Below, one piece after another: positions 24,594 through 50,773 of a stretch of DNA of 53,905 nt. The translations under genes were made by a program, and so were the position numbers. Origin of the DNA: Nitrospirota bacterium (GTDB lineage Bacteria; Nitrospirota; Nitrospiria; Nitrospirales; UBA8639); assembly GCA_003695915.1 (NCBI GenBank), contig RFGF01000057.1:1-53905 (forward strand). Reading direction: 5' to 3'. Positions within the stretch are counted from its first letter, which is position 1. Each line of letters starts with the position of its first letter. The notes below the pieces were generated by a model, which had not been told where the DNA came from, ran no database searches, and was given only the letters and a program-made list of their open reading frames with translations.

Positions 24594-25816
24594 ATGCGCG
24601 ACTTTGCACGCTATCAAGCTGTGCTGGGGCTGCAAGCCCCCTGGACCGTGGTCAACGTGGAGCTGGATGTGACGGGGCAGCAGGTCACCGTGACCGTCGA
24701 GGCTGGACCTGGGCCCTATCCCTGCCCTGAGTGTCAGGAGCGGGTCCCGGGCTATGATCGCAAGCGCCGCCGGGGGCGGCATCTGGACACACCTGCCAGT
24801 TCACGACGTGGATTCAGGCTGCTCTCCCCCGCGTGCACTGTCCGACCCATGGAGTCAAGCAGATCGCGGTGCCCTGGGCCAACCCCGGCAGTCAGTTCAC
24901 CGCCTGGTTCGAGCGCCTGGCTCTTGACGTGCTCCGGGAGTGCTCGGTGAAGGGGGCCGCCGGGCTGCTGCGTCTCACGTGGGATGAGGCCTGGGGCATC
25001 AAGGCGCGGGGGCTCAGGCGCCGAACCCAGGACGTCGTCGCGCACCTGGGCGTCGATGAGAAGGCGATCGCGAAGCGGCACCGCGACCTCACCGTCGTGG
25101 CCGATCTTGAGCGCGGTCGGGTGCTCTACTGGGCCGAAGACCGGCAGCAAGAGAGCGTGGATGGCTTCTGGGGCACGCTGACGCCTGAGCAACGGGGGAG
25201 ATTGAGGCCATCGCGATGGACATGTGGGAGCCTGACATCCAGTCGACCCCGGCGCACCTCGATGGGGCCGAGGCCAAGATCGTCTTCGATAAGTTTCATG
25301 TGGCCAAGCCTCTCCACGAGGCTGTGGACCGGGTGCGGCGGACGGAACACCGGAGGCTCAAGCAGACTGGCGACGGACGCCTGACCGGCACCAAGTACCG
25401 CTGGCTGATGCGCCCCACGGACATGACGGCCGAGCAGCAGGCTATCTTCCGCACGCTGCCGCGTGGTGATCGCAAGGTGGCGCGGGCCTGGACCCTCAAG
25501 GAGCGCGTCCGCCAGTTCTGGGACGATGCCTCCCCGGGTGCCGCGCGGACCGTCTTCGCCAGCTGGTTCTGGCGCGCCCCGCACAGCCGGCTGCGGCCCA
25601 TGGCGGCGGTGGCCCACCTGATCCGGCGGCATCTCCCGAACGTGCTGACCTATCTGACACATCGGGTCACCAACGCGGGGCTGGAAGCGGTCAATGCGAC
25701 GATCCAGGAGGGTCAAGAAGACCGCTCGCGGCTTCCGCAACGTCGAGCACGTCAAGACGGCGATCTATTTCCATTGCGGAGGGCTGGATCTCTATCCAAC
25801 CCACACGAAAGCGTGA
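24594..25816 (+). pseudogene. ISL3-family transposase with three frameshifts
   Basis: Reconstructed length is about 407 residues, normal for ISL3. Piece 1 starts at ATG 24594 behind an AAAGGAGGA ribosome site and holds the N-terminal zinc finger (CPECQERVPGYDRKRRR). Near 24788 an AC duplication shifts the frame. Piece 2 (to about 25195) carries LGVDEKAIAKRHRDLTVVAD, including the first catalytic Asp. A second shift leads to piece 3 with MDMWEP and FDKFHVAKPLHEAVD (second Asp region) and the NAGLEAVNATIQ catalytic Glu block. A third shift near 25707 leads to KKTARGFRNVEHVKTAIYFH and TGA 25816. The DDE triad is recognisable but split across frames, so the gene is inactive unless the indels are sequencing errors. 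Confidence 0.88.
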
Positions 25817-25822
25817 AGAGCC
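25799..25822 (-). repeat. Right inverted repeat of the ISL3 element
   Basis: Reverse complement begins GGCTCTTCACG and ends TCGTGTGGGT. GGCTCTT is the usual outer end of ISL3 repeats. It overlaps the last codons of the transposase. Confidence 0.8.
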
Positions 25823-25830
25823 TAAAAAAA
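25823..25830. repeat. Right 8-bp target-site duplication of the ISL3 element
   Basis: TAAAAAAA, identical to 24512-24519. Confidence 0.85.
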
Positions 25831-25850
25831 GTTGCACCTCTCTAATCGTC

Positions 25851-38008: not shown

Positions 38009-38650
38009 TTAGTGAAGCTCGCGATTCAGAACCTGTTGATCGGCATTCGTAAACCGATAGCCCTTGCTGTATAGGACATCCATGCTCTTCATCAAAATCG
38101 ACAACGCCCGCGCTTCGTAGAGCGTATCGAATTTATCGGTCAGAGCAAGAATATAGCGAGACGAAGGCAATCGGTCCTCGAAAACTAACCCGATCGACTC
38201 CAGCAGGTCGCGCAATTCCACAAGACTATATCGCCGATCGTCATCTCGATCTCCGACCAATGCGAATTGAAAAAATGTCAGACTGAGCGACAAGGATTGC
38301 TGCGTGCGCCCAAAATCTTTTCGGGCACTTTCAAGTCCTTCTGGGTATTGCTGCGGACAATCCCGGTCTTCCGACGCTTCGATCATCCGATGGAACGCAA
38401 TTTTTTCGACTCTCGGAGGCTTGGCCATCTCGCGCATCTGTCGGTAAAACCACACGGTACAATCCTGAGCCGCCACGAAGTCGAATTTATCTTTTTCAAT
38501 CTGCCGACTGATGTGTCGGGTAAAGCCGTCGAATATCTCTTCCCCCGTGCTCGACGCTTCCACCATCGAAGCGCTACCTAACGCGAGAGCGATGCCGACC
38601 AACGCAGCCACTCCCTGATTCAAAACTTTTCCATTCCATTGCGCGCGCAT
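38009..38650 (-). CDS. Exported helical hypothetical protein
   Basis: 213 residues with a signal peptide (GVAALVGIALALGSASMVEA, cut near residue 33). The mature part is charged and helical and has two Cys (AQDCTVWFYRQM and EDRDCPQQYPEGLESARK) that may pair. AGAAGGAGGAG precedes ATG 38650, and an extended -10 promoter lies 32 bases upstream, so expression signals are strong. No family is recognised. Confidence 0.75.
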   Translation of the reverse strand: MRAQWNGKVLNQGVAALVGIALALGSASMVEASSTGEEIFDGFTRHISRQIEKDKFDFVAAQDCTVWFYRQMREMAKPPRVEKIAFHRMIEASEDRDCPQQYPEGLESARKDFGRTQQSLSLSLTFFQFALVGDRDDDRRYSLVELRDLLESIGLVFEDRLPSSRYILALTDKFDTLYEARALSILMKSMDVLYSKGYRFTNADQQVLNRELH

Positions 38651-38812: not shown

Positions 38813-40060
38813 ATGGCTTCTGAAACCGTCATCTTGGAAGGGCACATCATCGATTCGCTGATTTTGGCGAAGGTGCTCGATACTATCGTCATGCTGGGCG
38901 GGACGTTTGATCTCACCGATGTCGAAATCGGCAGAACGCGAGCCGATATCTCGCGCGTCGCCATCCAGATTCATGCAGAATCTGCAGGCCTGCTCGATGC
39001 CATTCTGGCGGCCATCCAACCGCATGGGGCGATTGTCAGCCGAGCGCAAGATTGCCGCCTCGAACCCGCTCCCGCCGATGGGATCTTGCCGGATCAGTTC
39101 TATGCGACCACTCATCTCCCTACACAAATCCGCCTCAACGGCACGTGGATCGACGTGGACCATATCGAAATGGACCTTGCGATTCGGGTCAATTTGAATC
39201 CCCCCTCCGCACAGACCGTTCCCATGGCGGAGGTCAAAGCCGGAGACCTTATCGTTGTGGGTCGCGAGGGGGTGCGCGTCTTTCCGCTGGAACGGCCCAA
39301 GGAACACGATATTTTCGGGTTCATGGAAGCTCAGGTCTCGCCCGAGCGCCCGTTTCACCATGTCATTGCCGACGTTGCCACTCGAATGGAAAGGATCAGA
39401 ACCAAGCGAGAGCATCATCACCCTCCTCCCAAGGTCCTGCTAGCCGGGGGCCCCGCCATCGTACATGCTGGAGGGCGCGACGCGTTAGCGTGGCTCATTG
39501 ATATGGGCTATATCCATGTGCTCTTTTGCGGGAATGCGCTCGCAGCCCATGATATGGAAGCGAGTCTGTTCGGCACGTCCCTCGGATACAATCTCGGCGC
39601 GGGGCGCACGGTTCCACATGGACATGAGCACCACTTGCGTACCATCAATAAAATTCGAGCTATCGGGAGTATTCGCAAAGCGGTCGAAATCGGCGTTATT
39701 CAAACCGGGATTATGGCCGCTTGCATCCGTCGAGGAGTCCATATGGTAATAGGCGGGACGATCCGCGACGATGGACCCCTACCGGATGTCATTACCGATG
39801 CTCTCGCCGCTCAAGCGGCCATGCGTGCGGCGATCCCACAGGTGGAATTGGCCCTTCTCGTCGCCTCGACCCTCCACGCCGTAGCCACGGGAAACTTACT
39901 GCCAGCGACAGTTCCCACGGTCTGTGTGGATATCAATCCCGCTGTTCCCACGAAGCTGACAGACCGGGGCAGCTTTCAAGCTGTCGGTCTCGTCATGGAT
40001 GCCGCGTCCTTTTTGCGAGAGCTGGCCAGACGGTTGGGATGGAAAGAGGACGTGGCATGA
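38813..40060 (+). CDS. Ornithine cyclodeaminase, TIGR00300/LOR-SDH type
   Basis: 415 residues of the TIGR00300 family. The N-terminal domain begins ETVILEGHIIDSLILAKVLD, with a Gly/Asp-rich VMLGGTFDLTDVEIG. The second domain (about residues 200-415) is Rossmann-like with VLLAGGPAIVHAGGRDAL and GYIHVLFCGNALAAHDME, then NKIRAIGSIRKAVEIGVI and MVIGGTIRDDGPLPDV. Archaeal members of this length, and the C-terminal half of cyanobacterial AgrE/ArgZ, convert ornithine to proline and ammonia. The next gene overlaps by ATGA and encodes the matching arginine dihydrolase. ATG 38813 is the start consistent with the family. A TATGAT box at 38801-38806 may be a -10 of a nearly leaderless promoter. Confidence 0.87.
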   Translation: MASETVILEGHIIDSLILAKVLDTIVMLGGTFDLTDVEIGRTRADISRVAIQIHAESAGLLDAILAAIQPHGAIVSRAQDCRLEPAPADGILPDQFYATTHLPTQIRLNGTWIDVDHIEMDLAIRVNLNPPSAQTVPMAEVKAGDLIVVGREGVRVFPLERPKEHDIFGFMEAQVSPERPFHHVIADVATRMERIRTKREHHHPPPKVLLAGGPAIVHAGGRDALAWLIDMGYIHVLFCGNALAAHDMEASLFGTSLGYNLGAGRTVPHGHEHHLRTINKIRAIGSIRKAVEIGVIQTGIMAACIRRGVHMVIGGTIRDDGPLPDVITDALAAQAAMRAAIPQVELALLVASTLHAVATGNLLPATVPTVCVDINPAVPTKLTDRGSFQAVGLVMDAASFLRELARRLGWKEDVA

Positions 40061-40854
40061 CTCGATTTCTCGTCTGTCCCCCTGATTATTTCGGCATCGA
40101 ATATGAAATCAATCCCTGGATGCGAATCAGCAATGCGTCCGATCCTCAACGGTCGGCTCAACAATGGCATGCCCTTATGCGCCAACTCGAAGCTGTGGGG
40201 GCGAAGCTGGAACGGATGGAACCCGTCAAGGGACTGCCGGATTTGGTCTTTACCGCCAATGCCGGGTTCGTTGCTAACGGAATCGCCGTGCCGAGCCGGT
40301 TCCGACATCCCGAACGCCAACGTGAAGAAGAACACTTTACTCGCTGGTTTATTCAACATGGCTTTCGGGTTATCACACTCGACCCGACAATGTATTTTGA
40401 AGGAGCGGGAGATTTACTCGGATTCCCGGATCTTTGGTTTGGCGGATACCGGCAGCGCAGCGACATCCGGGCCTATACCGTGTTGACGGACATCTTTCAT
40501 CAAGAAATTCTTCCGCTGGAATTGGTCGATAGCCACTTTTATCATTTGGATACGTGCTTTTGCCCGCTAAGCGGAGGCGAGCTCTTGTATTATCCTCCGG
40601 CGTTCGATAACTACGCTCAGACGGTAATCAACGATCGCGTTCCCTCTCATCGGCGGTGGACGGTCCCCCGAGCCGAAGCCGTTCGTTTCGCGTGCAATGC
40701 CGTGTGCGTGGATCGGCACGTCGTCCTTCCTGCTGGCTGCCCCCAAACCATGGAGTGGCTGACGGCCCATGGGTACGAGCCGCATCCTGTAGAGTTGGAC
40801 GAATTCATGAAAGCCGGCGGCGCGGCCAAATGTCTGACGTTGGCATTGGATTAG
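40057..40854 (+). CDS. Arginine dihydrolase-type amidinotransferase-fold enzyme
   Basis: 265 residues of the DDAH/arginine-deiminase fold. Candidate active-site residues are Asn19 (YEINPWM), Asn68 (TANAGF), Glu115 and Asp119 (YFEGAGDLL), His163 (SHFYHLDTCFCPL) and the nucleophile Cys259 (GGAAKCLTLAL). Their spacing matches the N-terminal domain of cyanobacterial ArgZ/AgrE, which turns arginine into ornithine, CO2 and two ammonia. A dimethylargininase function is the alternative annotation. The gene overlaps the ornithine cyclodeaminase-type gene by 4 bases, so together they would convert arginine to proline with ammonia release. Confidence 0.85.
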   Translation: MTRFLVCPPDYFGIEYEINPWMRISNASDPQRSAQQWHALMRQLEAVGAKLERMEPVKGLPDLVFTANAGFVANGIAVPSRFRHPERQREEEHFTRWFIQHGFRVITLDPTMYFEGAGDLLGFPDLWFGGYRQRSDIRAYTVLTDIFHQEILPLELVDSHFYHLDTCFCPLSGGELLYYPPAFDNYAQTVINDRVPSHRRWTVPRAEAVRFACNAVCVDRHVVLPAGCPQTMEWLTAHGYEPHPVELDEFMKAGGAAKCLTLALD

Positions 40855-48342: not shown

Positions 48343-48597
48343 ATGTGCCTGGCCATCCCTGGACAAATCCAATACATCGATGATGACGAATTGCGAACGG
48401 GTCTCGTCTCGTTCGGAGGGATCAGCCAGGAAGTTTGCCTGGCTTTGGTTCCGGAAGCCAAGGTTGGCGATTTCGTGATCGTTCACGTCGGCTTCGCCAT
48501 TAGCCGCGTGAATGAGGAAGCGGCCCGTGAGACGCTGAAGCTCTGGGAGACAACACAACATTCCCCGCACTCGCGAGAAGAACCATCGTCCTCATGA
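48343..48597 (+). CDS. hypC: Hydrogenase maturation chaperone HypC
   Basis: 84 residues starting MCLAIPG; Cys2 is the essential residue that, with HypD, carries the Fe(CN)2CO unit for the [NiFe] site. The small OB-fold body ([35 protein letters not shown]) is complete. The gene overlaps hypD by ATGA at 48594-48597. No hydrogenase structural gene lies in the window. Confidence 0.96.
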
Positions 48598-49712
48598 AAT
48601 ACGTCGACGAATATCGCGATGCCCGTCTCGTCCGCACACTCGCTCGTGCGATTCGGGAAACGGTGCAGCATCCATGGACGATCATGGAAATCTGTGGTGG
48701 GCAGACGCACGCCATTGTCCGATTCGGCCTGGATCGCCTCTTGCCACCGGAGATCTCGCTGATTCACGGCCCAGGCTGCCCGGTCTGCGTGACCCCCATC
48801 TCTGCCATCGACGCCGCCATTCGCTTGGCCTCGTTGCCCCATGTCACACTCTGTTCCTTTGGGGATATGCTGCGCGTCCCGGGATCGGCCGATGATCTCC
48901 TTGGCGTCAAAGCCCGAGGAGGAGACATCCGCACCATGTATTCGCCCTTGGAAGCCCTGAAACTCGCGCAAACCATGCCCTCGCGCGAGATCGTCGTCTT
49001 TGCCGTGGGATTCGAAACTACAGCGCCGGCACATGCCATGCTGGTCCTGGAAGCCCAACGAGCCGGGCTCACCAACCTCAGCCTCATCGTCGCCCACGTC
49101 CGTGTACCGCCAGCCATAAAGGCTATCCTGGCCTCTCCGGAAAATCGGGTGCAGGGATTTCTGGCTGCTGGGCACGTGTGCACGGTCATGGGCTATGAAG
49201 AATACGAAGAACTCGTTCGGACCTTTCGCGTCCCGATTGTGGTCACGGGATTCGAACCCGTCGACATCTTGGAAGGCGTGCTCATGCTCGTGCGACAATT
49301 GGAGGCCGGGGAGGCCAGCGTTCACAATCAATATGCGCGCTCCGTCGATCGAGCAGGCAATCGCAAAGCCCAGCATCTGGTCGACACGGTTTTTGAACTC
49401 GGCCCGCAACACTGGCGCGGGATCGGCGAATTACCCTCCAGTGGGCTGCGACTCAAACCCCGATTCGCACATTTCGATGCCCTGCAACGCTTTGCCGCTT
49501 CTCTGCACCCCAGCGCTGCCACCGTTCACGAAAAGTCCGAATGCTACAGCGGGCTCGTCCTGCAAGGGCGACTCAAGCCGCACGAATGTCCCTCGTTTGC
49601 CGCTCGATGCACGCCCGACCACCCACTGGGAGCGCCGATGGTCTCCAGCGAAGGCGCCTGTGCAGCCTATTATCGCTATCGTCCACCGACCTCTTCTGCA
49701 GCTCGACCATGA
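48594..49712 (+). CDS. hypD: Hydrogenase maturation protein HypD
   Basis: 372 residues. Catalytic and binding Cys are Cys34 ([11 protein letters not shown]) and Cys62/Cys65 ([11 protein letters not shown]). The [4Fe-4S] cluster Cys lie in the C-terminal part ([34 protein letters not shown]). HypD assembles the Fe(CN)2CO group together with HypC and HypE. Start and stop overlap the neighbouring hyp genes by 4 bases each, so all three are coupled. Confidence 0.97.
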
Positions 49713-50773
49713 GCGAGCCTTCTCCGTGCACCATGCACTGCCCCGTCCCTTCTCCGGAAGCAGACACGATTCGCCTTGCCCATGGAGGTGGCGGGCGATT
49801 GACGCACGCGCTCACACAGGAGGTGTTTCTTCCTGCGTTTGAGAACCCGGTTTTGGCTTCCCTCCACGATGGTGCCCTTCTTTCGCTAGGCAACGGGCGA
49901 CTCGCGTTCACAACGGACTCGTATGTGGTACAGCCCTTGTGTTTTCCCGGTGGCGATATCGGCAGTCTAGCGGTTCATGGCACCGTGAACGATCTCGCCA
50001 TGTGCGGTGCCCAGCCACGCGCGTTGAGCGCCGGGTTCATCATCGAAGAAGGGCTCTCTAAGCGTATGCTCGAGCAGATTGTGGCGTCGATGGCCCAGGC
50101 CGCCAAGGCGGTCGACATCCCTATTGTCTGCGGGGATACCAAAGTCGTCGATCATGGCAAGGGCGATCAATTGTTTATCACCACGTCGGGCATCGGTATC
50201 GTGCCAGACGGCATCGAGATCGCACCCTCGCGAATTCGTCCTGGAGATCGGATTCTGCTCAGCGGAGATATCGGGCGACACGGGATTGCTGTCTTGAGCT
50301 CGCGCGCCGGATTGACCTTTGCCGGCGAGATCGCCAGCGATTCAGCCCCGCTTCACACGATCGTCGCGGATGTGATCGCCCATGGGATCGACGTGCATTG
50401 CCTTCGCGATCTGACCCGCGGCGGATTGGGCAGTGCGCTCAACGAACTGGCCATCTCTGCAGCCGTGTCCATGGTCATTGACGAAGCGCACATTCCCGTG
50501 AGCGATGCCGTGCGCGGCGCCTGTGAAATTCTGGGACTCGATCCGTTATATGTGGCGAACGAAGGGCGATGCGTCCTGTTCGTGCCTCCCCAAGATAGCT
50601 TGCGGGCGCTTTCTGTCCTTCGAAGGCACCCTGTTTCGCAGAACGCCGCGGACATCGGGGAAGTGCATCACGCCCCTGCCACCCCTCATGCCCGTGTCAT
50701 CCTTCAGACCATCATCGGAACCCACCGAATCGTGGAATTTCTTTCCGGCGAACAGCTTCCGCGGATTTGCTGA
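49709..50773 (+). CDS. hypE: Hydrogenase maturation protein HypE
   Basis: 354 residues of the AIR-synthase-like family. Landmarks are [66 protein letters not shown] and [15 protein letters not shown]. The C-terminus is PRIC, whose last Cys receives the carbamoyl group from HypF and is dehydrated to thiocyanate. ATG 49709 overlaps the hypD stop; the upstream open frame is a shadow of hypD. hypA, hypB and hypF are not seen in this window. Confidence 0.96.

Follow-up and report, generated by a model that had tools for sequence, protein, structure and literature searches.

The window, meaning here the whole 53,905-nucleotide stretch of Nitrospirota DNA that was analyzed, carries two adjacent genes related to the two parts of the cyanobacterial enzyme AgrE/ArgZ, which raises the questions of whether they act together on arginine, how widely they are kept together, and which cofactor the first of them uses. 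In cyanobacteria, one CO2 and three ammonium are released as AgrE converts arginine to proline, which PutA in turn converts to glutamate (PMC8262935). Judged from the sequence comparisons described below, the pair is quite probably an arginine catabolism unit of two translationally coupled genes, an unfused counterpart of AgrE/ArgZ.

Structure and relatives of the gene pair

The features of the pair are as follows.

38813-40060, forward strand: ocd, predicted ornithine cyclodeaminase of the TIGR00300 family, 415 amino acids (P0001), assigned by profile, domain, and alignment matches; its product comprises an N-terminal LOR/SDH region (residues 4-101), the first ArgZ-like C region (103-185), and a Rossmann region (187-404)
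40046-40049, forward strand: GAGG ribosome-binding motif of adh, 7 bases 5' of its ATG
40057-40060, forward strand: ATGA stop/start overlap of ocd and adh
40057-40854, forward strand: adh, arginine dihydrolase-type guanidine-modifying enzyme, 265 amino acids (P0002), with N68, E115, H163, and C259 kept

Both open reading frames lay where the original prediction had placed two overlapping genes (38813-40854) and share the 4-base ATGA, an overlap that likely reflects translational coupling. Between these genes and their relatives, divergence was ∼60% at third codon positions and 15 to 26% at positions 1 and 2, indicating that both are under protein-level selection. Next to the pair, positions 38009-38650 (reverse strand) encode a conserved protein without any Pfam match, and this neighbor recurs in both families of the order. 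The same window also contains hydrogenase maturation genes, with HypD adjacent to a HypE-like AIRS protein (48594-50773, forward strand), and a remnant of an ISL3-family transposase (25216-25845, forward strand).

The cyclodeaminase type proposed for the first gene was confirmed, as P0001 exceeded the cutoff of the NCBIfam profile TIGR00300 (460.8 bits against 410.8; E = 3.8e-138) over positions 1 to 404 of 407 and kept the motifs GNALAxHDxE, GHxHH, IRDDGPxP, and TKLxDRG of solved relatives. It also matched three Pfam ArgZ-C/LOR-SDH domains, that is, all three regions of the C-terminal half of AgrE/ArgZ, and is very probably an ornithine cyclodeaminase of the TIGR00300 family. The archaeal members (MMP1218, 3c2q; MJ1480) have the same family assignment and domains, with 43% identity between P0001 and MMP1218, but they are free-standing, whereas ocd is coupled to adh, and the bacterium carrying them encodes ProB and ProC as well. 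The ODC_var proteins (NF052526), for example, that of Acetoanaerobium, have a related cyclodeaminase core (34% identity) but lack the N-terminal LOR/SDH region, and no dihydrolase gene was seen beside the Acetoanaerobium one. Separately, open reading frames of ∼350 amino acids in G018, G145, G121, and other genomes weakly matched positions 184 to 257 only of TIGR00300 and are possibly GSU2086-type or deoxyhypusine-synthase-like proteins.

Homology to AgrE (Anabaena Alr4995) and ArgZ (Synechocystis Sll1336) extends over the full length of both parts, P0002 being 46% identical to the N-terminal domains of both and P0001 40% identical to the C-terminal part of AgrE; catalytic residues are kept, and the same pathway feeding PutA is expected. 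In contrast to AgrE/ArgZ, two proteins are encoded here and the cyclodeaminase gene comes first, so that any channeling would need a complex. Against the profile of the bifunctional enzyme (NF052231; cutoff, 1025 bits), the scores were 373 and 283 bits, and the one-chain, dihydrolase-first layout is absent. The pair is an unfused version of known enzymes and not a new kind of system.

Distribution and gene order in the Nitrospirota

To describe the distribution of the pair, 148 Nitrospirota genomes were surveyed by profile searches, with a carrier defined as a genome having a full TIGR00300 gene over the cutoff. There were 36 carriers, all in the class of the window, including 5 from its own family (its genome among them), 30 from the sister family that includes Nitrospira (Nitrospiraceae), and 1 from a third family. 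Every carrier (36/36) had an adh-type gene adjacent on the same strand, with the cyclodeaminase gene first, and when 30 pairs were compared at the base level, the exact 4-base overlap was found in 23, a larger overlap in 2, and a gap of 4 to 255 bases in 5. Such order and near-overlap in every relative examined exclude chance. The pair is common to almost all sampled Nitrospira-type bacteria and is a general trait of the Nitrospirales; the reversed order relative to AgrE/ArgZ, which the original prediction had pointed out, is a lineage trait and not an oddity.

The description of the pair as "split" stands insofar as two separate genes are present, but its implication of a broken fusion is probably wrong, since both enzymes exist in free-standing forms. 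Dihydrolase-type genes occur without a cyclodeaminase gene in G131 and in family f13, while the cyclodeaminase is free-standing in archaea (3c2q of Methanococcus) and has a shorter variant in Acetoanaerobium. The two-gene state is probably not a broken fusion, and the cyanobacterial fusion appears more likely to be the derived form. Outside the phylum, plasmid records yielded a single variant of the cyclodeaminase, from Acetoanaerobium, together with dimethylargininases of actinobacteria, too few for a cross-phylum statement.

Dihydrolase assignment and role of the pathway

Consistent with the dihydrolase type and the intact catalytic residues predicted for the second gene, the nucleophile C259 and residues H163, E115, and N68 were all found in P0002 and were invariant across 20 aligned relatives; N68 corresponds to the Asn (Asn-71 equivalent) mutated in 6juz and C259 to the Cys mutated in 6jv1. 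P0002 shares its fold and catalytic Cys-His-Glu with Mtb-type dimethylargininase (NF045659) and canonical DDAH, and the second gene could instead encode a dimethylargininase (or an arginine deiminase-like enzyme) that yields citrulline, which would place the two genes in different pathways. P0002 reached 283.4 bits (E = 1.5e-84) with the Arg_dihydro profile NF052232 and 241.3 bits with NF045659, under the curated cutoffs of 450 and 300, respectively, and no gene in any of the 148 Nitrospirota genomes exceeded the NF052232 cutoff in the profile searches. The homologue in G119 even scored slightly higher with the Mtb-type family (294.7) than with Arg_dihydro (290.4), N68 is shared with the actinobacterial dimethylargininases and does not discriminate between the two activities, and in a small tree of dihydrolase-type proteins most forks stayed open and P0002 was not placed. 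However, the best solved relatives of P0002 by both sequence and fold were the N-terminal domains of ArgZ/AgrE, with E values of 2.9e-71 by sequence (6e-8 for dimethylargininase) and, for the structural model, 13 best matches that were all ArgZ/AgrE chains (1e-22 to 1e-26; best dimethylargininase, 3e-14). Among 50 alignment columns separating ArgZ/AgrE from two actinobacterial dimethylargininases, the Nitrospirales proteins agreed with the former in 11 and with the latter in 5, and P0002 has the ArgZ-like motifs FEGAGD, CFCPL, and KCLTL, not NEGxGD, ALxVL, and KCCTL. Moreover, its partner in the invariant pair consumes ornithine, which is the product of a dihydrolase and not of a dimethylargininase. 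Considering the motifs, the fold comparison, and this fixed partnership, a dihydrolase is favored, though not settled by sequence, and a dimethylargininase is unlikely.

By analogy with ArgZ/AgrE, P0002 would hydrolyze arginine via a covalent Cys259 intermediate, yielding ornithine, CO2, and two ammonia, and P0001, like TIGR00300 enzymes, AgrE, and the archaeal enzymes, would convert ornithine to proline with release of a third ammonia; the proline could enter protein or pass via PutA to glutamate. Thus, the proposed formation of proline and three ammonia without urea or carbamoyl phosphate holds as a plausible route, with both activities predicted from homologues. The cyclodeaminase family includes archaeal enzymes with a role in proline synthesis, and because the end product here would likewise be proline, the unit might serve that purpose, as has been suggested for methanogens that lack the glutamate route, and not catabolism. 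Against this, ProC, ProB, and a PutA-type proline dehydrogenase were all found in the genome of the window, and ProB and ProC in nearly all genomes of the order, so that the pair is not the sole proline route; proline auxotrophy was rejected as an explanation on the same grounds. The gene order, the pairing with an arginine dihydrolase, and the presence of ProB, ProC, and PutA argue for arginine catabolism (arginine, ornithine, proline, glutamate) over obligatory proline synthesis, which we consider very unlikely.

For arginine catabolism, the most likely role suggested by these genes is nitrogen recovery from arginine. The reduced Nitrospiraceae genome G105 (2.0 Mb) is without the cyclodeaminase, the dihydrolase, and PutA together, while LarC is kept and an ammonia monooxygenase (AMO) gene is present; in this single case, the joint absence fits one shared pathway. 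The link to an energy metabolism based on reduced nitrogen, also put forward in the original prediction, is weak, as a search found no AMO gene in the 99%-complete genome of the window, and a comammox explanation for this genome was discarded accordingly. Cyanophycin was likewise rejected as the arginine source, with no cyanophycin synthetase over the cutoff in 58 genomes of the order. Literature searches combining Nitrospira and ornithine cyclodeaminase gave nothing related, and the papers on Nitrospira and arginine dihydrolase appear unrelated by title and abstract.

Cofactor of the cyclodeaminase and implications

In NCBIfam release 20 (2026), TIGR00300 is labeled nickel-pincer-nucleotide (NPN) dependent; given this label, NAD-binding residues, on which the cyclodeaminase was originally to be judged, may be the wrong test. 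The cofactor would probably be NPN, for whose synthesis the genome encodes LarB, LarE, and LarC, and possibly NAD. LarB and LarC exceeded their cutoffs side by side on contig C3 and LarE on contig C120, and a profile search of this genome found no LarA. LarC was present in all 36 cyclodeaminase carriers and LarA was missing in 25 of them (the accompanying Fisher value of 2e-6 ignores kinship), and among 14 control genomes, both TIGR00300 carriers (M. jannaschii and H. volcanii) had LarC without LarA. Approximately 15% of genomes, many of them cyanobacterial, have larB, larE, and larC without larA, for which other NPN-binding proteins have been suggested (PMC11796402), and the genomes here with Lar genes but without LarA add to this group. 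Each of the 30 Nitrospiraceae genomes that carry the pair has larC on the pair's strand, a median of 6.0 kb downstream.

The family label, the occurrence of LarC in all carriers and in both control carriers, and the published survey stand against a cyclodeaminase that uses NAD only, with the nearness of larB-larC being inherited synteny without functional meaning, a reading that nevertheless has an appreciable chance of being correct, though short of even. The AgrE crystal 6lrg is a ternary complex with NAD+ and ornithine, which by itself does not fit a nickel-pincer cofactor, and the AlphaFold model of P0001 (pLDDT of 66, a low confidence that allows a coarse fold match only) resembles NAD-using deoxyhypusine synthase. 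In the Nitrospiraceae, GpsA, a zinc-ribbon gene, and another reading frame intervene between the pair and the lar genes, and in the window's family, its own genome included, the gpsA-larB-larC-pdxA block is intact but away from the pair, indicating that the linkage represents one inherited arrangement; as cofactor evidence, it is suggestive only. LarC without the cyclodeaminase occurs in 71 Nitrospirota genomes, nearly all also without LarA, indicating that Lar genes serve other purposes as well; further nickel-pincer clients are implied in these genomes. None of the papers searched joined nickel-pincer nucleotide and cyclodeaminase. We therefore put forward only tentatively, and as a somewhat doubtful proposal, that the Nitrospirales unit is an unfused, nickel-dependent arginine-to-proline system in which the cyclodeaminase is a main NPN client, the two proteins form an ornithine-channeling complex, and the arrangement ocd-adh-gpsA-larB-larC marks cofactor supply beside its client.

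The locus offers an independent genomic setting for testing the assignment of NPN to the cyclodeaminase family, and its naturally separate AgrE/ArgZ domains are material for testing whether fusion or channeling matters. Its bearing on nitrogen use in the Nitrospirales and on the nickel-pincer question is of modest weight. For Nitrospira-type nitrite oxidizers and comammox bacteria, the pair probably opens a route to the nitrogen of arginine that involves neither urea nor carbamoyl phosphate.
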